A stretch of DNA of 64,000 nucleotides, taken from positions 186,001 through 250,000 of the forward strand of contig NZ_JAOWLC010000002.1 in assembly GCF_025751535.1 (NCBI RefSeq), in the 5' to 3' direction. Position numbers and translations under genes: made by a program. Shown here piece after piece: positions 7,081 to 16,712 of the stretch. The notes beneath the pieces are model-generated. The model had not been told where the DNA came from. It did no database searches and worked only from the letters and a program-made list of their open reading frames with translations. Numbering within the stretch: position 1 is the stretch's first letter; each line of letters opens with the position of its first letter. This DNA is from Lentibacter sp. XHP0401 (lineage in GTDB: Bacteria; Pseudomonadota; Alphaproteobacteria; Rhodobacterales; Rhodobacteraceae).

Positions 7081-7170
7081 GGACAGGTGGCCGAGTGGTC
7101 GAAGGCGCGCGCCTGGAAAGTGCGTAGGCGGGTGACCGTCTCGAGGGTTCGAATCCCTTCCTGTCCGCCA
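7081..7170 (+). tRNA. tRNA-Ser (anticodon GGA)
   Basis: 90-nt cloverleaf with a 7-bp acceptor stem (GGACAGG/CCTGTCC), discriminator G and encoded CCA. The anticodon stem CGCGC/GTGCG carries the loop CTGGAAA, giving anticodon GGA. A long variable arm follows, typical of serine tRNAs, and the T arm contains GGTTCGAATCC. The last 14 bases (7157-7170) recur at 16699-16712, so the 3' end of this gene is the attachment site of the element downstream. The gene itself is intact. Confidence 0.97.
7157..7170 (+). repeat. attL: left attachment repeat of the integrative element
   Basis: CTTCCTGTCCGCCA, the last 14 bases of tRNA-Ser(GGA), occurs again exactly at 16699-16712. A tyrosine integrase gene next to the distal copy makes this pair the likely att core. 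Confidence 0.85.
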
Positions 7171-7317
7171 CATTAAAAATCTAAGTATCTGATATTATAT
7201 GGTTATTTGGCTTTGCTTTTTGCATCGCCCCACATGCAGACCCACATCGACTTGTCGTCGCATATGTTTCCCTCTGGGCACGTTGCCCGTTTTCGGAACT
7301 GTAAAAGGACAAGACAT

Positions 7318-7704
7318 ATGACCATCCAAAGAACCACAGAACTAACCAGCCGCTCGATCCTCGGGGCTATCCCGGCTGCACTGACTGCTACGACGACACA
7401 AGCAGAGAAGGGATCTGATGATCCAATTCCTACTTGGTTTGCGGCATGGGGGCGGGGAAGGGAAATGTGGCGTGAAGAAGCAAGCAAGACTGGCGGCGAA
7501 AACTTCGACACGCCTGAATGCTTAAATCTAGACAGCGCCAACGAGCAACTCTCCGAGCTAATCGCAAGAACGCTTGCCACGACTGTAGAGGGGGCGGCCT
7601 GTCAACTTGAGTGGGTTCGAGTAGATGGTGCTGGTGATTTGTGCTGCTCTATGCATCATCTAGCGATCGACAATGCTATACGAGCGCTACGAACCATGAG
7701 CTAA
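7318..7704 (+). CDS. Hypothetical protein, first gene of the element
   Basis: 128-aa protein of unknown function. The ATG at 7318 is preferred over an upstream in-frame start at 7207 because AAGGAC at 7305-7310 sits 7 nt before it. The N-terminus TSRSILGAIPAALTATTTQA looks like a moderately hydrophobic leader, but no clear signal cleavage site is seen. The middle is acidic and Trp-rich (WFAAWGRGREMW near residue 40). Three cysteines lie in the C-terminal half. It starts about 150 bp inside attL and has no obvious partner. Confidence 0.55.
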   Translation: MTIQRTTELTSRSILGAIPAALTATTTQAEKGSDDPIPTWFAAWGRGREMWREEASKTGGENFDTPECLNLDSANEQLSELIARTLATTVEGAACQLEWVRVDGAGDLCCSMHHLAIDNAIRALRTMS

Positions 7705-7893
7705 TACTCTAAGCCACCATGGGTGCTGGGGGAGGGGCGGGAGGCGCTCTATGAACAGTTGGGGAATTCGTGCTCAATGCTGCGCGCGTTCTCTCTGCCT
7801 CTATCTTGGCCTTACTTCCAAAATACACGGCGAAACACATAGAATAATTCGTTTTAAACTTGGTACTGCATAGCAGCACATATGGAGGTGATA

Positions 7894-8265
7894 ATGCGTC
7901 TGTTCACAGTTCTTTTGGCTCTAACCCTTTGCTCAACTGGGGCTTTGGCTGATGAAAGATACCTATGTGAGGCTCGATGGAGTCATGGTGTGTTTCATAA
8001 GGAGGGTCTTAGCGGTTGGCAGGATATGAGCATGGTCCCCGAAGATCAGTTTCTCATAGAGAACGAAAAGGAAGGCGCACGCGTCAAGATGATAGGGCGG
8101 CGCTCATCGCCAACAGATCGCTACAACTGCGAGCGGTTTTTAGGAGGGGCGTTAAGGTGTCTGAATGGGCAGTTTCAGTTTAACCTGAACACTTTGTTGT
8201 TTACCCATCAAAACGATTACGGAGACTGGTTTCTATTCTCAGCCGGTGACTGCAAAGCGCTTTAG
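7894..8265 (+). CDS. Small secreted hypothetical protein
   Basis: 123-aa protein with a clear signal peptide (MRLFTVLLALTLCSTGALA, cleavage before DERY). GGAGGTG at 7884-7890 places the start at the ATG at 7894; an in-frame ATG at 7882 would lie on the ribosome binding site. Four cysteines remain in the mature part (CEARW, NCERF, RCLNG, GDCKA), which could form two disulfides in the periplasm. I do not recognise the family. Its place in the element suggests an accessory (morph) gene, but no function can be given. Confidence 0.65.
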   Translation: MRLFTVLLALTLCSTGALADERYLCEARWSHGVFHKEGLSGWQDMSMVPEDQFLIENEKEGARVKMIGRRSSPTDRYNCERFLGGALRCLNGQFQFNLNTLLFTHQNDYGDWFLFSAGDCKAL

Positions 8266-8357
8266 CTGCATCAATTGGTAAGGTGCAGAATGAATGCATG
8301 TTAGAAGACCTCAAGTGTTCTGTGCGCCCGACCCCTACGCGTCGATCACAGCTGATA

Positions 8358-8393
8358 GGGGGTAGGGGGGTGAGAAAGAAGGGGGGGCGGGGG
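8358..8393 (+). other. G-rich tract with G-quadruplex potential
   Basis: Four runs of five to seven G on the plus strand (8358-8362, 8365-8370, 8381-8387, 8389-8393), separated by 2, 10 and 1 bases, in the 283-bp gap between two element genes. No other such tract was noticed in the window. Function unknown. Confidence 0.5.
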
Positions 8394-8548
8394 CGAAAAA
8401 ACCGCGGGATTATCTGATAGTCCACCCCCTCGCTCGCTAGGGTCTCTATTTTTTCAAATATTTTTTCCAAATCAATCGCGGTGAGCTGGTGTATTTGTAA
8501 TGCGCTTTCGATCTCGCATTGTTGGTTTATATTACATTGGAGATATGC

Positions 8549-8827
8549 ATGGATCAGAACAGAAGCCCCCACAGTGCGCCCCCTCATTTCAGCTTCAAGA
8601 AATCGCCATCGGATGGTGACAGAGCTCTTGGGCGTCAGCAGGCTCTTATCATTCAAGGCACCGCTGAGATCAGGGCACATACCGCCGTTAATGGCCCAAG
8701 CGAAATGCCGCTCGCGCTCGATGATGGGCGCGTGTTGCGCACCGATAAAGAAATTCTCGACTATCTGGATGAAGGCGACAACGCTTCGGCCTTCTTTGAT
8801 CTATGCGGAAAGGGACCAAGCCAATGA
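8549..8827 (+). CDS. Small element protein translationally coupled to the virion-like gene
   Basis: 92-aa protein without recognised domain. The ATG at 8549 is chosen because TGGAGA at 8538-8543 precedes it at normal spacing. The N-terminal third is basic and polar (SPHSAPPHFSFKKSPS). The C-terminal half is acidic (LRTDKEILDYLDEGDNASAFFDL). The stop overlaps the next start by ATGA at 8824, so the two genes are one transcription unit. A small virion or chaperone-like role for the large downstream protein is possible but is inference from coupling only. Confidence 0.6.
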   Translation: MDQNRSPHSAPPHFSFKKSPSDGDRALGRQQALIIQGTAEIRAHTAVNGPSEMPLALDDGRVLRTDKEILDYLDEGDNASAFFDLCGKGPSQ

Positions 8828-11424
8828 GTTTTTTCGATTGCGTGAAGGACGGGCTTGAAGACGGTATGGTGGACAAGGCGCGTGGAGAGCGCGCACAGGC
8901 CATGTGGCGGGACATATCGGACAGATACGAGCGGCAAGGCCATGAGCGCCATGTAGCGGAGGCTTTGGCGGGCGAGGACGTGAAAGAAGCGTTCCGAAAA
9001 GAGGCGGGCAAGGCCCGTCATGTCCTCCTGTCAAAGCTGGTCAACAACCGAAAGCAAGCGGTTGAAGTTGCGGGAACCACCAACCGGACAGATATACGCC
9101 AAGATCCCACGCGCGCGATGGAGCGAGTGGATTATAGGTCTCGGGCACTTAAACGGCGGTTTGATGGGAGTCTGCAAGACTATCTCGACCAGCATCATCA
9201 GGGCTTGTTTGGCAAAACCACCGCACGGATAAATCACGAGAAGGTGTTGCGCTCAATTCTTGATGGGGATGCGTCAGATGAAGTCGCCGCTGCTTATGCC
9301 AAGGCGGTTTCTAATGCGCTCGAAGATATGCGCCTGATGGCAAACGAAGCCGGTGCAACCATTGGTAAAATTGATAATTATTTCCCTCAGAACCACAACC
9401 GCACGGCACTCCTTGAGGCTGGGCTTGATACCTTCGCCAAGGAGCGCGGTGTTGGGCGGAGGCAAGCAAAATTCATGGCTATGGCAAAGGGCGAGTCCCG
9501 AGACGCGATGTTTTCCAGATCGTTCGACACATGGGCTGACGATATCCGGGACCGGATTGACTGGGCCAAGATCAAGGATCACCTAACTGGAAGGCCGTTT
9601 CAACAGGATGGCGGCCCTGCGCCGCTCTTGGAAACCCAGAACCGCTTTCTGCGCGATGTGTTCGACAGCGTTGTATATGGCGAGGGAGCCACCTCACCGA
9701 CCTATGGGAAGCCGCAGGGTTCCTCTCTCACGACCAGAATGTCGATGGAGCGCGTTCTACACTTCAAGAGTGCTGACGATTGGATTATTTATAACAAGAA
9801 GTATGGCACAGGTGATCCGCACCAAGCCCTCATGTCTCACGTTCACAAGATGGCGCGCGATATCACGATGATGCGCGAGTTTGGCCCCAACCCCGGGCTT
9901 GGCTTAGAATTTCGGGGTGATCTTCTGATGAAACGAGCCAAGGAGCTGAGTATTGATCCCCGCGCGGCTCAGGGCGGGGTGGCGCAGGCCAAGCGTATGA
10001 TGGCCGTCGAGAATGGGGCAGGTGTGCCCAACGGATACTTCCAATCTCTGACGGCAAATTTCTTGTCAGACGCGCGGCAAGTTATGAGCTCTGCCTTCCT
10101 TGACCGTGCGATGATCGCCAGCATTTCGGACGTGAACTTTTCCAAGATGGCGGCTCAAACTATTGGCTCAAATCGCGACGCCCCGTTCCAGGTCTATATC
10201 CAAAACATATCCGACATGGCGAAGAACAAGAGCCTCACCTCTACAGAAATGCGTCAATGGGGATGGGTTTCAGACACAATGGCTGACGCTGGAATGGCTG
10301 TGGCCCGTTTCAACGGGGAATCTCCCTCATCGCCTTGGGCTGCAAATCTGTCGTCCAGCATCATGAAGCTGCAAGGGCTTTCCTCACACACTGACGCGGG
10401 GCGCTTCGCCTTGCAGCACACCTTTGCAGGGCAGATGGCGAACCAGATTGGCAGGAAGTTTGACGACATTGAGCCGGGGCTTTTGGCAATCTTCAAGGAG
10501 CACCAGATCACTCCCGATGACTGGGGCCAGTTTGCTAACCCCGAATGGGCGATGAAGAAGCCTGACGGTGCGATGTTCCTAAACCCTCTCTGGTGGCGCG
10601 AGGCAACCAACCTTCCTGCCAACGTGGCTGACGATCTGTTCTTCAAGTTTCAGGGGGCGGCCGAGGACTTCATCGAAAGCGGTGTCCCAACGCAATCGCT
10701 ATTCATGCGCGGCATCTTCGATCCTATTGGGCGAGGGCTTGAACCGGGCTCTGCAACTTATGAGCTGGCGAAGTCGGGACTGATGTTCAAATCGTTTGTC
10801 ATGGCATTTAGCTACAACAGCTACCGAGTGATGCGCCGGATGCCTTCAGTAAACAACAGGTGGCTCTGGGCGGCTGAGAATATCGCAGGGGCAACAATCC
10901 TGGGCGCCACAGCCTTACAGATCACGGAGATCATCAAAGGAAACGATCCAAAGCCGATGGATAGGAGCGACTTCTGGTTTCAGGCGGCGCTGAAAGGCGG
11001 CGGCTTTGCCATCATCGGGGATATCATTGCAACGGGTGAGACAAAGTGGGGAGGCGGTGTCCCGTCCTATGCCGCGGGGCCGGTAGTGCAGGCCGCTGGC
11101 GACCTCTACAGTCTGACTATCGGCAACCTGACCGACATTGGCATATCCGTCTTAACGGGTGAGGAAATTGAGCTGGGTCTTCCCAAGCAACTCAAGCGCA
11201 CCATTGACCGCTACATGCCGGGGGGCGACCTTCCTTTCCTTGGGCCGGCATTCCAGCGCTTGATCACGGATCAGCTATATATGGCACTTGATCCCGATGG
11301 CGCTGAGGCGCTCACAAAGAAGGCAACTGCGCGTGAAAACAGGGACGGAAACGGGTCATTCTGGATGCCTGGTTCGCCCATGCCGAGCCGAGTTCCTGAC
11401 TTCTCAAACATACTTGGGCAGTGA
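8824..11424 (+). CDS. Large phage protein, probable internal virion or DNA-ejection protein
   Basis: 866-aa protein and the largest gene of the element. The N-terminal 150 residues are strongly charged and helical (repeated Arg/Lys/Glu, for example DKARGERAQAMWRDI). A segment GKIDNYFPQNHNR lies near residue 190. The C-terminal third has Trp-rich and hydrophobic helices (AGATILGATALQITEII near 690) and ends in a Gly/Pro-rich tail (GSFWMPGSPMPSRVPD). Long predicted virion and ejection proteins of podovirus-like phages often show the same build, including such a tail. No catalytic motif is seen. The ATG at 8824 overlaps the previous stop; a start at 8803 is less likely. Virion function is an inference. 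Confidence 0.6.
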   Translation: MSFFDCVKDGLEDGMVDKARGERAQAMWRDISDRYERQGHERHVAEALAGEDVKEAFRKEAGKARHVLLSKLVNNRKQAVEVAGTTNRTDIRQDPTRAMERVDYRSRALKRRFDGSLQDYLDQHHQGLFGKTTARINHEKVLRSILDGDASDEVAAAYAKAVSNALEDMRLMANEAGATIGKIDNYFPQNHNRTALLEAGLDTFAKERGVGRRQAKFMAMAKGESRDAMFSRSFDTWADDIRDRIDWAKIKDHLTGRPFQQDGGPAPLLETQNRFLRDVFDSVVYGEGATSPTYGKPQGSSLTTRMSMERVLHFKSADDWIIYNKKYGTGDPHQALMSHVHKMARDITMMREFGPNPGLGLEFRGDLLMKRAKELSIDPRAAQGGVAQAKRMMAVENGAGVPNGYFQSLTANFLSDARQVMSSAFLDRAMIASISDVNFSKMAAQTIGSNRDAPFQVYIQNISDMAKNKSLTSTEMRQWGWVSDTMADAGMAVARFNGESPSSPWAANLSSSIMKLQGLSSHTDAGRFALQHTFAGQMANQIGRKFDDIEPGLLAIFKEHQITPDDWGQFANPEWAMKKPDGAMFLNPLWWREATNLPANVADDLFFKFQGAAEDFIESGVPTQSLFMRGIFDPIGRGLEPGSATYELAKSGLMFKSFVMAFSYNSYRVMRRMPSVNNRWLWAAENIAGATILGATALQITEIIKGNDPKPMDRSDFWFQAALKGGGFAIIGDIIATGETKWGGGVPSYAAGPVVQAAGDLYSLTIGNLTDIGISVLTGEEIELGLPKQLKRTIDRYMPGGDLPFLGPAFQRLITDQLYMALDPDGAEALTKKATARENRDGNGSFWMPGSPMPSRVPDFSNILGQ

Positions 11425-11558
11425 GGGGCTTTCTGAAAGATAAGACAGGCCTTCGAGTGTAGGCTGAGGGCATGTCCTGTCACAAGGTGGTGGGCCATTC
11501 TGGCCGCTGGCTGTGGGCCGCCTGCCGAAAATAGCCCCACTCTTGCGTTACTCCAATT

Positions 11559-11843
11559 TTAACTGCAGATCGTCGTAGCCCCATAGGTGTTGCAGATTGT
11601 TGTAGAGCTCGGCTCAAATGCCCGCGCCTTTACCGCTTCCAAGCGTTGCCTCGCGCTATCAATCTCCCGTGCGATGCATTCGGCCATTTTATCGGTCTTT
11701 GGTTTGAAGCCATAACTTTCACAGACGCCTTGGTAGTATGCCACGCGCTCAGATTGAGAGGCACCGTTGAACCAAGCAGAGCTTCCAATCTGGGCGGGCC
11801 CACAGCCAAAAAGCAACAGGCTAGAAAAGATCACTGTGCGCAT
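11559..11843 (-). CDS. Small lipoprotein
   Basis: 94-aa protein starting at the ATG at 11843. The leader MRTVIFSSLLLFGCG has a lipobox (LLFGC) with Cys14 as the predicted lipidated residue. The mature part contains VCESYGFKPKTDKMAECIARE, a Cys-x(n)-Cys pattern with YGF that recurs in small bacterial lipoproteins. Two more Cys lie near the C-terminus (ICNTYGATTICS). It faces away from the HTH gene at 11956. Longer in-frame upstream starts exist but would bury the signal peptide. It may be an envelope morph gene that changes the host surface; this is not shown by sequence. Confidence 0.6.
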   Translation of the reverse strand: MRTVIFSSLLLFGCGPAQIGSSAWFNGASQSERVAYYQGVCESYGFKPKTDKMAECIAREIDSARQRLEAVKARAFEPSSTTICNTYGATTICS

Positions 11844-11955
11844 TTTTGTCCCCGCGATTAACAATCTTTTGCCAATATACATTTGGCGGGCAAAAATCAT
11901 AACACGTTTTTGTCGAGGCATTTGATCCGCTTGCCTAAGGTGGCAGATTGGCTGC

Positions 11956-12393
11956 ATGACAAAGCTCACCGCGATCACGCCCCGCCCCCTACGTATGCGC
12001 GCCGCGCTGCGCACCGCAATTGACCTGCGTGTCAAACAAGGAATGACAATCGCGGCCGCCTGCGAAGAGGCAGGAATGAGTCCTCAAGGCTTCCACAAAG
12101 CTATGAAGCGGCCGGCTGTGCGTGACTATCTCCAAGCGATTCAGCTGGAATTTGTCGCCGGCGTCGAGGGCAATAAAGCGGTTTACAAGGCACGAGCACT
12201 TGAGGTGGGCATGGATCTAATGCTCAATTCAAAGAGTGAGACGGTCAGGGCGCGAATGGTTGAGTTCTTCGCCAGTGACGGGAAGGTTTCGCCCGTATCT
12301 GTACATATTGATGCGCGGCAAACTGGTGGCTATGAGTATGCGCACCCAGATAGACAAGTGGTAGAAATTATTCCCAGTAAGGCTGAGGATTGA
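11956..12393 (+). CDS. HTH protein, possible small terminase subunit
   Basis: 145-aa protein. A helix-turn-helix is visible near residues 28-55 (GMTIAAACEEAGMSPQGFHKA), with an Arg-rich N-terminus. The C-terminal part (SVSVHIDA-like strand VSPVSVHIDARQTGGYEY, then VVEIIPS) resembles small terminase-like DNA-binding proteins of alphaproteobacterial phages. If it is a TerS, it would recognise packaging sites on DNA. In phage satellites an own TerS redirects a helper terminase. A plain transcription regulator is the main alternative. AAGGTGG lies 12 nt before the ATG. Confidence 0.5.
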   Translation: MTKLTAITPRPLRMRAALRTAIDLRVKQGMTIAAACEEAGMSPQGFHKAMKRPAVRDYLQAIQLEFVAGVEGNKAVYKARALEVGMDLMLNSKSETVRARMVEFFASDGKVSPVSVHIDARQTGGYEYAHPDRQVVEIIPSKAED

Positions 12394-12416
12394 CCCACCA
12401 CTTATGCTCACTCCTG

Positions 12417-12791
12417 CTATTTTTCAGCCTGCCACATTCCCGAGATAGCATGCCTTAATGAGAATAGGATAAGCCCGCCAAGAAAAGCAGGCCAGAACGT
12501 ATCAAAGGGAGTGGGTGAACGGATCTCAAGCCGGGCCCAATAGTCTTGCAGAGTGATTTGTAGATAGGCGGATCGAAGCGCCCCCACAGTCAGCGCTAGA
12601 AACAAAGGGTTGACCCGGCCCGAGAACATGAAGCCGACCACAAAAAGGATCAAGAAGCGCAGATCCAAAACAGCTGAGATGGTTGTGCCTGTGACAATCG
12701 CCAGCGTTCGTTGTTCTATGTTGAGAAAAACCACAAAGGTGATAGCAGCAATTCCCAACAGAGCTGCCGAGTACTTCCAAGAATACATCAT
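12417..12791 (-). CDS. Hypothetical inner membrane protein
   Basis: 124-aa protein with about four hydrophobic segments (residues 7-24, 31-55, 62-75 and 98-115). No motif is recognised. It is convergent with the HTH gene at 11956, and the gap between them is 23 bp. It could be a holin-like or superinfection-type element protein, but nothing in the sequence decides this. Confidence 0.5.
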   Translation of the reverse strand: MMYSWKYSAALLGIAAITFVVFLNIEQRTLAIVTGTTISAVLDLRFLILFVVGFMFSGRVNPLFLALTVGALRSAYLQITLQDYWARLEIRSPTPFDTFWPAFLGGLILFSLRHAISGMWQAEK

Positions 12792-13020
12792 TTGATTTCA
12801 GACCTTTCCGCTTCACGATAAAAGCTCACAGGCTACAAGTTATTCCATAACCAGCAATGCAAAAGATAAACAAAATTTGCAGTGGAGTTTCAAAAGGGGG
12901 CGGCCGTGAAGGCCGTCAGGGAGAGCACAGTCACTCGGGGGATGATGGGCGGCGAAGGTCGTAGGCGCCAAGCACGCGGCCCTCCTGCGCCCTGTGCGGC
13001 GATCTCTTGGACCCCTCGTC

Positions 13021-13152
13021 ATGGCTCTTGCTGATATGCGCGAGAAAATGGTCACCGGCCTTCGCCGCTTCCGTGACGTCTTCCGCCGTAATGAACTGCA
13101 ACCGGACATCGTAGAAGATGGCAAAGACTACCTGGACGGGATGGGACCATAG
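13021..13152 (+). CDS. Possible 43-aa protein
   Basis: Short frame starting at ATG 13021. It would encode a basic, helical peptide (MREKMVTGLRRFRDVFRRNE) with an acidic tail. The ribosome binding site is poor. The frame stays open upstream to 12946 without a better start. It may be a small element protein or a remnant of a longer gene. Confidence 0.25.
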   Translation: MALADMREKMVTGLRRFRDVFRRNELQPDIVEDGKDYLDGMGP

Positions 13153-13188
13153 AGGCGCGCAGCGCCCCCCTCTGGGAGGCTTGGAGCC

Positions 13189-13278
13189 ATGAAGGCAAAC
13201 AGAAGCCGGATTTTACACGGTCAGATGCGACTGCCTGAAACCATCCAGCAAAAGGCCGAATTTTTACAGAACCCATAG
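13189..13278 (+). CDS. Possible 29-aa peptide
   Basis: Very short frame starting at ATG 13189, with GGGAGG at 13174-13179. The peptide is polar (MKANRSRILHGQMRLPETIQ). It follows the 43-aa frame by 36 bp. Weakly supported. Confidence 0.15.
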   Translation: MKANRSRILHGQMRLPETIQQKAEFLQNP

Positions 13279-13477
13279 AACAGGGGGTTTTGGTGAGGTC
13301 AGAAGCAAGAAAGCAGGCGGGGAAGTGGAGTTTCTCGAGGGAGGGCCAGCCGTTTAAACAACTTCCCCGTCTTCCCCCCAACCTCTCCTCCTACAAGAAA
13401 CCTCTCCCATATGTGGGAACGTTTTGAAGTAAGCCTATGATAAATAACAATAACGCATGTGAAAATTGGGGTCTGGT

Positions 13478-14713
13478 TTAGTGGCGCGTTTTGGCCTTGA
13501 TCTTGACGCCCATCAGGCCAGCATTTTCGGCGGCCTCATGCATGATTTCTTCCAGCTTATCTTTCATTGAGCGGCGAACCCGATAGCTATCGTGCAGAGC
13601 TAAAACAGGTTCGCCCAATCTGGTCATGACCTTCAAGACGTGCATGGCTATCTCGGAATCCAGCTTCATCAGCCACAGACCCGCGCCGGTGTGAAAGTCC
13701 TCGGCAATCAGATGGTGTCTATCTTTGACGTCTCTCACCAGCTTGTGCGCGAATGCCATCGCCTTGCTATAGTCGCTTCCCGCAATCTGCTTCATAAGCC
13801 GCCGGCTGGTCGTGACCTCAATCACGCCGCCCTCTTCATCGCGCACAATCTTTTCGCCATCCGAGTTTGCCAGCACGGTTACTACGTCGCCCAATGTATC
13901 GGCGTTGATAAGCACCAGCAGCGCCAGCTTGACCAGATCGCGCGGCCAGTTGCCCACGTCATAGCAATCGGCAGGCGCAGGGTGGCCGCGTCGGTTGTAT
14001 AGGATGTGCGGATGGAATGCCGTGAAGTCCATCTCGATGGTCGGTTCACCGTTCATTGTTATATCGTGGCGCTCATCTCTCGGCATGTTTTGCCAGTTAG
14101 GTCCTCCCACTGCGTAAAGCCTCCCGCCGTAATCCGTGCTGATATTGAATACTCGCCGTATTGGACAACGTATGTCGATGCCCTTGCCGTTTCTAATGTC
14201 GGTGCCTGTCAGCATTTCGTTGACCGGGCCCAGTGCGCGCTCGATGCGCTCCAGATCATAACGGTTTGAAGGTGTAAACTCTTTTCCATTGGCATCTCGT
14301 ATGATTGCCGTGCGGGCTGGTATTGCCAGAGGCACGGCGCCCATATCAGGGGTGATAGGTTGCAGCAGATCAGCTAGTGAGCCGGTGCCTATCGCCGCAC
14401 TTTGCCAGCCGCGTCCGCCCGGGCTTTGCACCATGTTTTCCACTAGACCCATGCTTTCCATGCGATCGATGCAGCCGGTGATGTTTCGCCTTGTCAGCAG
14501 GCCGTTACAGTTGCCCCTACGCCTTTGATCATTTCGCCTGCTATAAGACGTAGCGTGCCCTGCTAAAGAGTTCTCATAGATAGCTACAGCGATGGGCGCG
14601 TGTTCTTTTCGCTCCAAGCCCAAAGAGGATTGGATCTCGCCCCAGAGTGGGCGCGTGTTCAGTCGAAGATATAGGGGGATTTGCTGTTCCCCCGTCTCGT
14701 AGAAAACTTTCAA
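13478..14713 (-). CDS. Minimal family-A polymerase-like protein, putative element replicase
   Basis: 411-aa protein. Residues about 68-112 look like a winged helix (LLTRRNITGCIDRMESMGLV). The C-terminal half shows an ordered series of motifs like those of family-A polymerases. These are GGRLYAVGGPNWQNMP (197-211, compare the GRL..PNLQNIP element), EMDFTAFHPHILY (motif A, Asp229), RDLVKLALLVLINAD (258-271, finger-helix position) and LALHDSY (motif C, Asp375). The helix LMKLDSEIAMHVL precedes motif C as in PolA. It is far shorter than PolA, and no exonuclease domain or canonical O-helix Tyr/Phe is seen. The start appears to be TTG at 14713 with AGGA 4 nt upstream; no in-frame ATG fits. Polymerase function is inference from motifs. 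Confidence 0.6.
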   Translation of the reverse strand: MKVFYETGEQQIPLYLRLNTRPLWGEIQSSLGLERKEHAPIAVAIYENSLAGHATSYSRRNDQRRRGNCNGLLTRRNITGCIDRMESMGLVENMVQSPGGRGWQSAAIGTGSLADLLQPITPDMGAVPLAIPARTAIIRDANGKEFTPSNRYDLERIERALGPVNEMLTGTDIRNGKGIDIRCPIRRVFNISTDYGGRLYAVGGPNWQNMPRDERHDITMNGEPTIEMDFTAFHPHILYNRRGHPAPADCYDVGNWPRDLVKLALLVLINADTLGDVVTVLANSDGEKIVRDEEGGVIEVTTSRRLMKQIAGSDYSKAMAFAHKLVRDVKDRHHLIAEDFHTGAGLWLMKLDSEIAMHVLKVMTRLGEPVLALHDSYRVRRSMKDKLEEIMHEAAENAGLMGVKIKAKTRH

Positions 14714-14825
14714 GTCATCCTGCCCATCTAGGGGGCCGGGGCGAGTTTCATTGCGGTATTATGAGCTATGCTCTATGTTCATTTTGAAAACCCCGCAGAT
14801 ATGCCGCCACAGCATTATGCATTTT

Positions 14826-14856
14826 AAGCCCGCGCCTCTCCAAAGGTCGCGGGCTT
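14826..14856 (-). terminator. Stem-loop downstream of the AlpA-like gene
   Basis: Inverted repeat AAGCCCGCG/CGCGGGCTT with a 13-nt loop, 12 bp after the end of the AlpA-like gene. The minus-strand U-tract is weak (TTAAAATG), so termination in that direction is uncertain. Confidence 0.45.
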
Positions 14857-14868
14857 TAACTTTTGTGG

Positions 14869-15114
14869 TTAAGCAGCGGCACTTTTGGAGTGGCTTTGTT
14901 GGTTTGAGCCGCGAAAAGTGGTGGTTTCGTCGCGGTTCGATAGCCAATTCTGAATGTCATTTTCGCGCCAAGCGACTGCTCGTTTGCTAAGCTTGATAGG
15001 CTTTGGGAACTCGCCATCTTTCATCATCGCGTAGATTGAAGAACGCGAAAGACCTACCAAAGCAATAACGCTTGGAAGGCGGAGAACGCGAGTGTGTGAA
15101 GTTGAGGCTGTCAT
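14869..15114 (-). CDS. AlpA-family DNA-binding regulator (excisionase-like)
   Basis: 81-aa protein with the AlpA/MerR-like winged-helix fold. VLRLPSVIALVGLSRSSIYAMM forms the HTH (residues 10-31). It is followed by GEFPKPIKLSKRAVAWRENDIQNWL, the typical wing and terminal helix. The ATG at 15114 has AAGGA 8 nt upstream, so the longer frame to 15147 is not used. Known for the family: AlpA activates integrase expression or acts in excision of P4-like elements, and it is a hallmark regulator of Gram-negative satellite islands. It sits directly downstream of the integrase gene on the same strand, 136 bp away. Confidence 0.85.
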   Translation of the reverse strand: MTASTSHTRVLRLPSVIALVGLSRSSIYAMMKDGEFPKPIKLSKRAVAWRENDIQNWLSNRDETTTFRGSNQQSHSKSAAA

Positions 15115-15250
15115 TGCTCTGATCCTTTTAGGTTTCAATAACCCCAAGATCAGCCAGTAACGTTCAGTTCCAAATGCACGAAGGTAGTGGGCGGAAAGTT
15201 AATGACTATTTTCCTGACAAATATCCCATTTATCTGCCACTCGCCCCACA

Positions 15251-16534
15251 TCAAACCAATCTGAGGCCGTTCACGTTGGGCACGTTCTTTGTTTCCTGAG
15301 TTACATACTCAGCCCAAGCATTCATCATCAATCTGCGGCGCTCAACAAGGGTTTCCCGATGGTAAGCCTGTTCCACACGGTTGCCTATTCGATGCCCAAG
15401 AGCGAGCTCCGCCATTTCTCTTGGGTACTCCTCTCGGCCTGCCCAGTTCCGCGCCGTTGCTCTCAGGCCGTGTGGAACGGCTGGACGATTTGACTGAGGA
15501 TCTCGCCAACCGGCTTCCTCTTCTCGAATGCCGAGTGCTGGTAATGATAGATCATTGAGTACCTCAGATGCATGCATTCGACGCATGACGCCTGACAGGG
15601 CCATATCACTCAGTTCACCGCCCCTTGGTGCGGGAAACACAAATTCTTCCCCCACAGTCCTTGGAATGCCGCGCAAGAGGGCAAGGGCCGCATTTGAAAG
15701 GGGAACAGCGTGCTCTTCCTTTGTCTTGGTTCTATGTGCAGGAATATTCCAAATAGACGCCTCAAAATCAATCTCTGACCAAATTGCACCGCGTGCTTCG
15801 CCACTTCGAGCCCAGGTTAGGGTTAGAAACTCTAAACATCTCGCAGATATTCCCTGGCGTTTTCTCAGTTGTTCCATCCAATTTGGGATGTCTTCAACCG
15901 CGAGCGCAGGCTGGTGTCTCACCTGTTTGACCTTCGATGGCTTTGGCAGAAGCATGTCGAGGTTACCACCCCATGTTGCAGGGTTTGGTCCTTCTCTCCA
16001 TCCGTGCGCGGTGGCAAACGCTAATACACTTTCAATTCGACCGCGTAGCCGGCTGGCAGTTTCACTCTTCGTGCTCCAGATTGGTTTTAAGACCTCTAAA
16101 GTATCAGCAACAGTGATTTCAGTAACAAGCTTGCCTCCCAATCTAGGCACAGCATAGGTGCGCAATGTGCTTCCCCACTGGGCAATATGCTTAGAGTTGG
16201 TTAATTCGCCAGCCTTCTTTTCGAGGAGCATTAACATTACCGCTTCGAAGGTTGGAGTGGTCCTGTCTTTTTCACGAAGTGCTAACGGGTCTCCTCCGTT
16301 TCGTGCAGTCTGCCGGTTCTGTGAAGCGGCTACGCGCGCCTGTGCTAAGGAAACGAGTGGATAGGAACCTAGGCCCAGGTCGCGCCTCTTTCCCCTTATC
16401 ACAAGGCGCTGGCCCCACCTTTTGCTGCCAGTGTTGGTAACGATTAACATAAGGCCGTCGCCATCGCTGTATTTTCCTGCCACCTTCACGGTGCTGCAAA
16501 ATGCTGCTGATAATCTTACTGCACGTTTTGGCAT
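15251..16534 (-). CDS. int: P4-type tyrosine integrase
   Basis: Site-specific recombinase of 427 aa that integrates and excises the element at tRNA-Ser. The N-terminal DUF4102-type arm-binding domain spans residues 1-90 (KYSDGDGLMLIV, LGLGSYPLVSLAQAR). A core-binding SAM-like domain follows, then the catalytic domain. Visible catalytic residues are Arg in WARSGEARG, His and Arg in HGLRATARNW, His in LALGHRIG and the Tyr nucleophile in QAYHRE. MPKRAVRL at 16534 is the likely start; an upstream in-frame start exists at 16558. The gene lies 165 bp from attR, as expected for this class. Confidence 0.93.
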   Translation of the reverse strand: MPKRAVRLSAAFCSTVKVAGKYSDGDGLMLIVTNTGSKRWGQRLVIRGKRRDLGLGSYPLVSLAQARVAASQNRQTARNGGDPLALREKDRTTPTFEAVMLMLLEKKAGELTNSKHIAQWGSTLRTYAVPRLGGKLVTEITVADTLEVLKPIWSTKSETASRLRGRIESVLAFATAHGWREGPNPATWGGNLDMLLPKPSKVKQVRHQPALAVEDIPNWMEQLRKRQGISARCLEFLTLTWARSGEARGAIWSEIDFEASIWNIPAHRTKTKEEHAVPLSNAALALLRGIPRTVGEEFVFPAPRGGELSDMALSGVMRRMHASEVLNDLSLPALGIREEEAGWRDPQSNRPAVPHGLRATARNWAGREEYPREMAELALGHRIGNRVEQAYHRETLVERRRLMMNAWAEYVTQETKNVPNVNGLRLV

Positions 16535-16625
16535 GCCGCCCCCCATCAAACCCCACATTAAGCGGGAAGAACCACAATCCGCCCCACATAAATATTAGGA
16601 ACACTCTAGACGTGACTGGACATTT

Positions 16626-16667
16626 ATGGAAGGTATATAGTTGAAATATATGTGATTAATGGAAGGT
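16626..16667. repeat. Direct repeat pair, possible integrase arm sites
   Basis: ATGGAAGGT occurs at 16626-16634 and again at 16659-16667, spaced 33 bp (about three helical turns), between int and attR. Position fits arm-type integrase sites; this is inference. Confidence 0.35.
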
Positions 16668-16698
16668 TGTGGACTGTTTTGGATTATAGATTGGCGGT

Positions 16699-16712
16699 CT
16701 TCCTGTCCGCCA
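16699..16712 (+). repeat. attR: right attachment repeat
   Basis: CTTCCTGTCCGCCA, an exact copy of the tRNA-Ser 3' end (7157-7170), in the same orientation. The adjoining bases differ, so the identity is limited to 14 bp. Confidence 0.85.

Follow-up and report, generated by a model that had tools for sequence, protein, structure and literature searches.

A divPolA2-type A-family polymerase gene in a tRNA-Ser-integrated mobile element of Lentibacter sp. XHP0401

A protein of 411 amino acids encoded in the genome of Lentibacter sp. XHP0401 carries motifs of family A polymerases in a very small frame, and the locus raises the question of what such a protein does and for which genetic entity. It lies in a stretch of 64,000 nucleotides that was analysed as a whole (the window). 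A first-pass annotation had described it from the sequence as a minimal PolA-like protein with an N-terminal winged helix, possibly a replicase, primer-maker or RNA polymerase of an element. The open reading frame proved to be real: the plus-strand reading of 13478-14713 contains many stop codons, while the minus strand gives a frame of 411 codons from TTG to stop (Table 1). The TTG start is supported by the nearest relatives found, L001 (72% identity) and L063 (68% identity), since both have TTG at the equivalent point. The four motif blocks reported are all present and in order along the protein, namely GRLYAVGGPNWQNMP (residues 197-211), EMDFTAFHPHILY (residues 227-239), RDLVKLALLVLINAD (residues 258-272) and LALHDSY (residues 371-377).

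Searches of Pfam (E up to 10), NCBIfam (E up to 1) and PDB sequences (E up to 10) gave no matches to the protein, and PDB sequence-profile searches gave matches at chance level only. It is matched by phrog_4756 (3.1e-51), a family annotated as 'unknown function'. A chance match of the motifs was rejected on the basis of this hit and of the conservation of the catalytic residues in relatives. The identity of a defence gene was also rejected, PADLOC giving no match for the protein.

Table 1. Features of the polymerase gene and of the element around it (positions are those of the window)
Feature	Position	Strand	Evidence or remark
tRNA-Ser(GGA), insertion target	7081..7170	plus	ARAGORN; attL = 7157-7170
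Podovirus-type virion/ejection-like protein, 873 aa	8803..11424	plus	phrog_684 'virion structural protein' 7.5e-108
Small HTH protein	11956..12393	plus	weak likeness to terminase small subunits, best phrog_4102 E=0.0033
divPolA2-type A-family polymerase gene	13478..14713	minus	411 aa, TTG start; phrog_4756 E=3.1e-51; AlphaFold model
Palm and fingers (residues ~126-411), predicted	13481..14338	minus	VIA-align vs 5dkt, 8att, 1s77
Motif C HDS, D375	13586..13594	minus	D375 50/52, S376 42/52; hhalign pairs with T7 RNAP HDS
Fingers RxxxK helix, R258-N270	13904..13942	minus	R258 49/52, K262 51/52, N270 44/52
Motif A, D229 to Y239; His234 at D+5	13997..14029	minus	D229 52/52, H234 42/52
GRLYAVGGPNWQNMP block (residues 197-211)	14081..14125	minus	R198 52/52; hhalign pairs with PolA GRL..PNLQNIP
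Predicted winged-helix domain (residues ~18-122)	14348..14662	minus	separate model, Foldseek, VIA
AlpA-type regulator/excisionase	14869..15147	minus	PF05930 E=3.4e-21
Tyrosine integrase	15251..16558	minus	PF00589 2.6e-13, PF22022 3.8e-24, PF13356 4.4e-17
attR, exact 14-nt copy of tRNA-Ser 3' end	16699..16712	plus	141 bp beyond integrase

An AlphaFold model of the protein, made from an alignment of 19 sequences (the window protein and IMG/VR relatives), had a mean pLDDT of 83.7 and a pTM of 0.66, and predicts the palm fold that the first-pass annotation had anticipated. Foldseek comparison of this model with the PDB gave 79 entries at E <= 0.001 (best 1.6e-5), and the best 50 of these were all A-family DNA polymerases, which in itself excludes nothing. 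Using VIA-align, residues ~126-411 could be superposed on the apicoplast polymerase 5dkt, of Pol I type (Z 14.1, 227 aa, 3.8 Å), on the yeast mitochondrial RNA polymerase 8att (Z 13.6, 252 aa) and on T7 RNA polymerase 1s77 (Z 12.7, 249 aa). As modelled, the likeness to PolA and to the mitochondrial enzyme is tied, with T7 RNA polymerase slightly below; structure prediction thus bore out a palm of the A-family and single-subunit RNA polymerase (ssRNAP) kind and left PolA and mitochondrial RNA polymerase level. In the model, strand 223-230 ends in motif A, strands 371-373 and 376-380 flank motif C, and helix 258-270 carries the RxxxK signature.

The winged helix proposed for the N-terminus was also predicted. 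When the first 132 residues were modelled alone (pLDDT 78.6, pTM 0.75), the best Foldseek hit was 5aip, of MarR type (E 0.047), and the best VIA match was 2obp (Z only 7.7, 73 aa, 2.2 Å), a result consistent with a winged helix but middling. The protein is indeed small and possesses no exonuclease domain. Ahead of the palm the model shows a single long helix (151-169). About 65 residues separate R187 from the winged helix, a segment with scant space for a thumb; by length alone, the polymerase is without a recognisable one.

Both aspartates on which the polymerase reading depended are conserved among 52 aligned relatives, a set without the degenerate L026, L028 and L029: D229 occurs in 52/52 and D375 in 50/52, the other two having gaps at this position. 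Further conserved positions in this set are R215 (52), Y251 (51), H374 (48) and D249 (47). Position D+5 of motif A, which we take to be the sugar (steric-gate) position, is Glu in 26/26 Pol I-type sequences and Gly in 9/9 ssRNAP sequences, and His in 42/52 members of the family. The O-helix Tyr, presumably situated in the fingers beside the nucleotide, is present in 26/26 and 9/9 of these same sets and is replaced by Asn in 44/52 of the family. Pol I-type sequences also possess an O-helix Phe (24/26) and the Glu of HDE (26/26), where the window protein has Leu and Ser. Membership of classical Pol I was rejected on account of the His, Leu, Asn and Ser that replace Glu, Phe, Tyr and the Glu of HDE, and membership of the T7-type RNA polymerases on account of the His and Asn that replace the conserved Gly (D+5) and Tyr (O-helix). 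The published account of the primase CcPol partly echoes the roles assigned here to these two positions (PMC7581432).

These residues bear on the suggestion that the HDS form of motif C is closer to that of the single-subunit RNA polymerases; that suggestion carries little weight, as the residues at the sugar-selection positions are those of neither PolA nor ssRNAP. Profile comparison with hhalign, which had been proposed as a check, gave close scores for the two families: the score of the family was 46.6 against ssRNAP (at motif C) and 42.9 against PolA (over 195 columns), each above the maximum of 26.4 among 12 shuffled or reversed controls, and five shuffles of the PolA comparison reached 20.6 at most. 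Homology to the polymerase superfamily has sequence support too, since the phrog_4756 profile also matches a genuine Pol I of 937 aa (2e-4), from motif A through motif C. It is unlikely that the protein is an ssRNAP that transcribes genes of the element or phage from its own promoter, with the winged helix reading this promoter. Such an enzyme would suit the fold, the RxxxK signature and the HDS triplet, all shared with the T7 type, as well as the resemblance of RLYA/RFYG to the T7-type RGR(V/L)Y, the profile score at motif C and the structural tie with mitochondrial RNA polymerase, and an RNA polymerase is among the options listed by Yutin 2024 (PMC11348598). The PolA score is nearly equal, however, the hhalign probabilities are low for both families (54% for ssRNAP, 35% for PolA), and T7-type enzymes are of ~880 aa and have Gly and Tyr where the window protein, with 411 aa, has His and Asn.

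Among distant relatives, L026, L028 and L029 (from genomes of ~1.4 Mb) have lost the GGR block and show RDK or KDK where HDS would be expected. This lineage appears as if a catalytically dead polymerase had been retained at full length.

For placement among known proteins, a family HMM was built from 42 sequences, which include ICP1 and IMG/VR contigs. AUR84708 was excluded from it, as were L002 (the window's own gene), L027 and L030 (fragments), L031 (a true Pol I), the degenerate L026, L028 and L029, and L068, L072, L079-L081 and L084 (same contigs or near copies). The HMM matches the divPolA2 representative AUR84708 (MG592441.1) at 5.5e-48 and a Barba phage protein, also outside the HMM, at 5.6e-62, and tblastn of the window protein (P0001) against the genome of AUR84708 gave 2e-7 over residues 177-253. 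By these matches the window protein is assigned to the divPolA2 family, published in 2024, and is itself not new. The description of divPolA2 (Yutin 2024, PMC11348598) agrees in the palm, the lack of thumb and exonuclease, the extra N-terminal domain and the tie between PolA and mitochondrial RNA polymerase. It differs in that the family was reported from phages, whereas the window copy is in an integrated element, and in that the N-terminal domain was said to have no detectable similarity, whereas a winged helix is predicted here; integrative elements are unmentioned in the passages of that paper that describe the family. A full-text search returned a single work on divPolA2 (preprint and paper). 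No link of the family to tRNA-integrated elements appeared in titles and the opening parts of abstracts, a weak sign that none has been published, subscription papers being outside the scope of this search.

By tblastn, relatives were identified in 284 of 50,697 phage records (Vibrio 141, Rheinheimera 114), with ICP1 included at ~1e-7, and in 3 of 72,556 plasmids. The phrog_4756 profile matched 32 of 385 genomes of the same class, with the window's own genome counted and one of the 32 (G215) being the true Pol I of 937 aa. A pattern scan of GTDB gave 243 places, and the best 80 of these belong, by their titles, mostly to Alphaproteobacteria (SAR116, Rhodobacteraceae) with few others. A phage-only gene was rejected on the basis of the family members in the same-class and GTDB genomes. 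In a FastTree phylogeny (124 sequences, 429 columns, midpoint root; the partial L008, L018 and L078 additionally omitted), a single clade of 19 sequences (support 0.90) takes in all 11 of the named phages sampled; its other members are five IMG/VR contigs, out of 16, and three sequences from chromosomes. The remaining 11 IMG/VR contigs are placed among chromosomal sequences; some of these contigs have lengths of 20-191 kb and may be prophages. In this tree, isolated phages look like one offshoot of a broader and chiefly chromosomal diversity, and they may have acquired the gene from elements, a direction that depends on the midpoint root and a small sample.

The copy in ICP1 is a 'hypothetical protein' of 495 aa. 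A review credits this phage with a Pol I (Gp58) and a helicase-primase (Gp57) and states that no RNA polymerase is predicted among its products (PMC9040626). In both ICP1 (L032 6713-9202) and Vibrio phage 1.063.O (L160 1444-3175), a gene annotated as acyl carrier protein (COG0236 note or ACP-like) is located shortly upstream of the divPolA2 gene, with two small ORFs intervening in ICP1 and none in 1.063.O. Two family members occur in one small region of L070 (3087-4397 and 7816-8835). Two copies ~9 kb apart, both of 597 aa, occur in L113 (7588-9381 and 16537-18330), which suggests tandem insertion of one element.

In the window, the polymerase gene sits in a mobile element integrated at a tRNA-Ser gene, which extends from about 7171 to 16712 (9,542 bp, ~9.5 kb) and in which genes for an AlpA-type regulator and a tyrosine integrase adjoin that of the polymerase (Table 1). 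The 873-aa virion/ejection-like protein is the sole clear structural gene recognised in the element; its phage matches include a 'pilot protein' and a 'minor capsid protein'. The view that the window element is a satellite with its own complete set of capsid genes is unsupported: it encodes a single virion-like protein, and the only other hint is the weak terminase resemblance of the HTH protein. No convincing iterons or origin were found around the polymerase gene.

Similar surroundings were sought in 109 genome stretches, composed of 30 loci of a first set and 79 from the GTDB scan (from its best 80 of 243 places); at least five contigs were drawn twice (143353, 29970, 172121, 169902 and 40893 long), none of them with a tRNA duplication, and two of these pairs count twice for integrase. 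A duplication of a tRNA 3' end (shortest 14 nt) brackets the polymerase gene in 31/109 stretches, although adjacent tRNA genes of the same kind can imitate it and some matches are of 45-60 nt. The controls gave 8/109 for tRNA 5' ends and 0/109 for the stretch upstream of the tRNA; any tRNA at all is contained in 71/109. The target tRNAs of the bracketing elements cover ten amino acids. The 32 bracketed spans, window included, have a median of 8.9 kb (that of L202, 2.4 kb, being too small for an element), and 24 of them contain an integrase. Among the 59 stretches of at least 19 kb, the repeat is present in 30 and an integrase <=8 kb away in 35. For the first loci, an integrase was identified within 8 kb in 18/30 (16/30 at a stricter cut) using the integrase HMM of this analysis, where 0.04 per locus would be expected from the Pfam matches (214 integrases in 87.9 Mb).

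The 23 bordered elements that carry an integrase contain 167 ORFs of at least 90 aa, and the largest gene family other than polymerase and integrase, both of which are present by selection, occurs in 4/23; shared genes of the size of AlpA can escape this test. No third widely shared gene is thus present in these elements among ORFs of this size. An AlpA-like regulator may also be shared, as AlpA is found beside the polymerase gene in three genomes (G000, G222 and G117). The 144 other ORFs include integrases (24), resolvases (4), DNA methyltransferases (2-3 each) and scattered cargo. Primase or replication-initiator families are not among the 25 commonest of 93 Pfam families in these ORFs; a PHROGs scan of them covered the 25 commonest of 126, and rare replication genes may be hidden. 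DUF6538 matches 15 of the 144, the single example shown being the N-terminus of an integrase, and no mention of this domain was found in the literature searched. Among 24 carrier genomes, no D5 helicase was found beside the polymerase gene, and D5_N occurs in two of them, on another contig or 134 kb away.

The cargo also bears on whether the protein could act in interference or regulation, as a polymerase-like decoy or an anti-helper factor, with catalysis lost or of minor importance. This would account for the degraded motifs of L026, L028 and L029 and would suit some defence-type cargo in the elements, where PADLOC methyltransferase models match 2-3 of 144 ORFs each. The catalytic residues are, however, kept in 50 to 52 of the 52 relatives (the degenerate three being outside this set), and PADLOC does not recognise the polymerase itself, which makes this role highly improbable.

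Other relatives occur in phage-like and plasmid-like contexts. The closest, L001, is on an IMG/VR contig of 10,022 bp with terminal repeats of 99 bp (circular or complete), which encodes a large terminase, capsid, prohead protease, HNH and head-closure protein. Scans of 11 ORFs besides the polymerase gene, every one against at least one library, revealed neither an integrase nor any further replication gene. Its 'portal' has no Pfam or PHROGs match and was called from size, position and relatives. L064, also a close relative, carries head and packaging genes like L001. An interpretation of L001, L063 and L064 as tail-less capsid-forming satellites was withdrawn, as L063 has a tape-measure protein and the 'portal' of L001 lacks a profile match. 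In L066 (5116-7136) and L068 (607-3212), a Rep3-type plasmid initiator gene, assigned by Pfam for L066 and by likeness to L066 for L068, is followed by the polymerase gene on the same strand. Both contigs also bear phage head genes, like a small phage-plasmid.

Two described systems are informative as to function. TV-Pols are minimal A-family polymerases of mobile elements, with Rhodobacterales among their hosts, and were predicted to have prim-pol activity in elements with integrases (Iyer, Abhiman, Aravind 2008, PMC2579912). Their conserved hairpin Arg, two Asp, fingers Asp and RxxxK find counterparts in R198 (52/52), D229 (52/52), D375 (50/52), D249 (47/52), R258 (49/52) and K262 (51/52), an equivalence assigned by order rather than by joint alignment. 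A subset of TV-Pols likewise has an extra N-terminal domain and is encoded in the vicinity of integrases, resolvases or transposases and of restriction-modification genes (PMC2579912); a comparable mobile-element context is seen in the integrases near 18/30 loci and in that of the window. The N-terminal domain was predicted to be all-helical in that subset, in contrast to the winged helix predicted here, and other TV-Pols are tied to a D5 helicase, which was not found beside the gene in the 24 carrier genomes. The TV-Pol thumb is of two antiparallel helices (PMC2579912); in the window model one long helix precedes the palm. Ma-LMM01, a TV-Pol phage and the only TV-Pol sequence compared, gave no match with the family profile (the ICP1 match in that search is not independent, ICP1 being itself a member of that profile, A1). 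BFVD matches include one virophage helicase/primase/polymerase at 1.7e-3. Taken on motifs and context, the family is likely a member of the TV-Pols. Mobile elements with a TV-Pol and an integrase were already proposed by Iyer et al. 2008 (PMC2579912); what is added here is the place of this family in tRNA-bordered elements with an integrase.

CcPol, a TV-Pol, is when bound to MP a proven DNA primase that primes de novo with an A-family palm (PMC7581432), and MP is by prediction an OB-fold partner (PMC10061031). The CcPol-MP or PolA-SSB pair of SCC elements resembles the window protein in being an A-family palm of a mobile element, without editing exonuclease and with a small DNA-binding module. 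This module is a separate OB-fold protein there and a fused winged helix here, and the pair occurs in Bacillota, mostly with large serine recombinases and a helicase nearby, OB-fold partner and helicase belonging to one operon, whereas AlpA and a tyrosine integrase are the neighbours in the window. CcPol also keeps the equivalents of Glu710 and Phe762 of Pol I (PMC7581432), a pair that the window protein lacks.

The best explanation, to which we give about even confidence, is that the protein is a primase-polymerase that initiates replication of the ~9.5-kb integrative, satellite-like element. The AlpA/integrase pair would excise the element from tRNA-Ser, the winged helix would place the polymerase on its DNA, possibly at an origin, and the thumb-poor palm with D229 and D375 would synthesise a short primer de novo and then elongate it, with R258 and K262 acting on the nucleotide; a host or helper-phage replisome would then do the bulk of the copying. 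The mode of action of the polymerase would resemble that of CcPol-MP in SCC elements, the fused winged helix replacing the OB-fold partner. We infer catalytic activity, priming, the choice between dNTP and NTP and origin binding for this protein. A replication initiator is favoured because, among ORFs of at least 90 aa, no gene family besides polymerase and integrase recurs widely across the 23 elements, and a role in replication because no other replication gene was recognised among the ORFs scanned on the L001 contig and L066 and L068 pair the gene with a Rep3-type initiator. Priming in particular is favoured by precedent, namely the CcPol-MP primase and the prim-pol prediction for TV-Pols.

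Several findings count against an initiator: no iterons or origin were found near the gene, the resemblance to winged helices is of middling strength (Z 7.7), the Glu/Phe pair of CcPol and Pol I is absent, and the motifs of L026, L028 and L029 look degenerate. In addition, ICP1-type and Barba phages have a polymerase and a primase of their own besides this gene, so that divPolA2 is not the sole replication enzyme in them. This last point would fit a primer-dependent DNA polymerase for repair, as suggested in Yutin 2024 (PMC11348598), or for gap-filling, and the PolA fold and QN(I/M)P element would suit either such an enzyme or the main copying polymerase of the element, working without priming. 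Repair explains poorly why only polymerase and integrase are widely shared in the 23 elements, and with no exonuclease and little thumb room (~65 residues) processive copying of 9 kb would not be expected; we therefore consider a non-priming enzyme of either kind improbable.

A broader proposal can also be made, which is speculative and rather unlikely at present. divPolA2 would be the initiator of a large, undescribed class of elements of Alphaproteobacteria, many of them marine, with a two-gene core of tyrosine integrase and winged-helix/A-family primase, no helicase and free cargo, from which phages such as ICP1 and Barba acquired the gene. Origin recognition, priming and synthesis would be combined in one polypeptide, with a steric-gate His that the DNA and RNA polymerases used for comparison all lack. 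The family as placed here connects the unexplained extra polymerase of ICP1 and Barba phages, the predicted prim-pols among TV-Pols and the proven CcPol-MP primase. If the primase-polymerase reading is right, a small, defined enzyme of 411 aa and about 30 tRNA-bordered elements would be at hand for testing priming by A-family polymerases, and a likely replication gene would be named for a class of alphaproteobacterial genomic islands.
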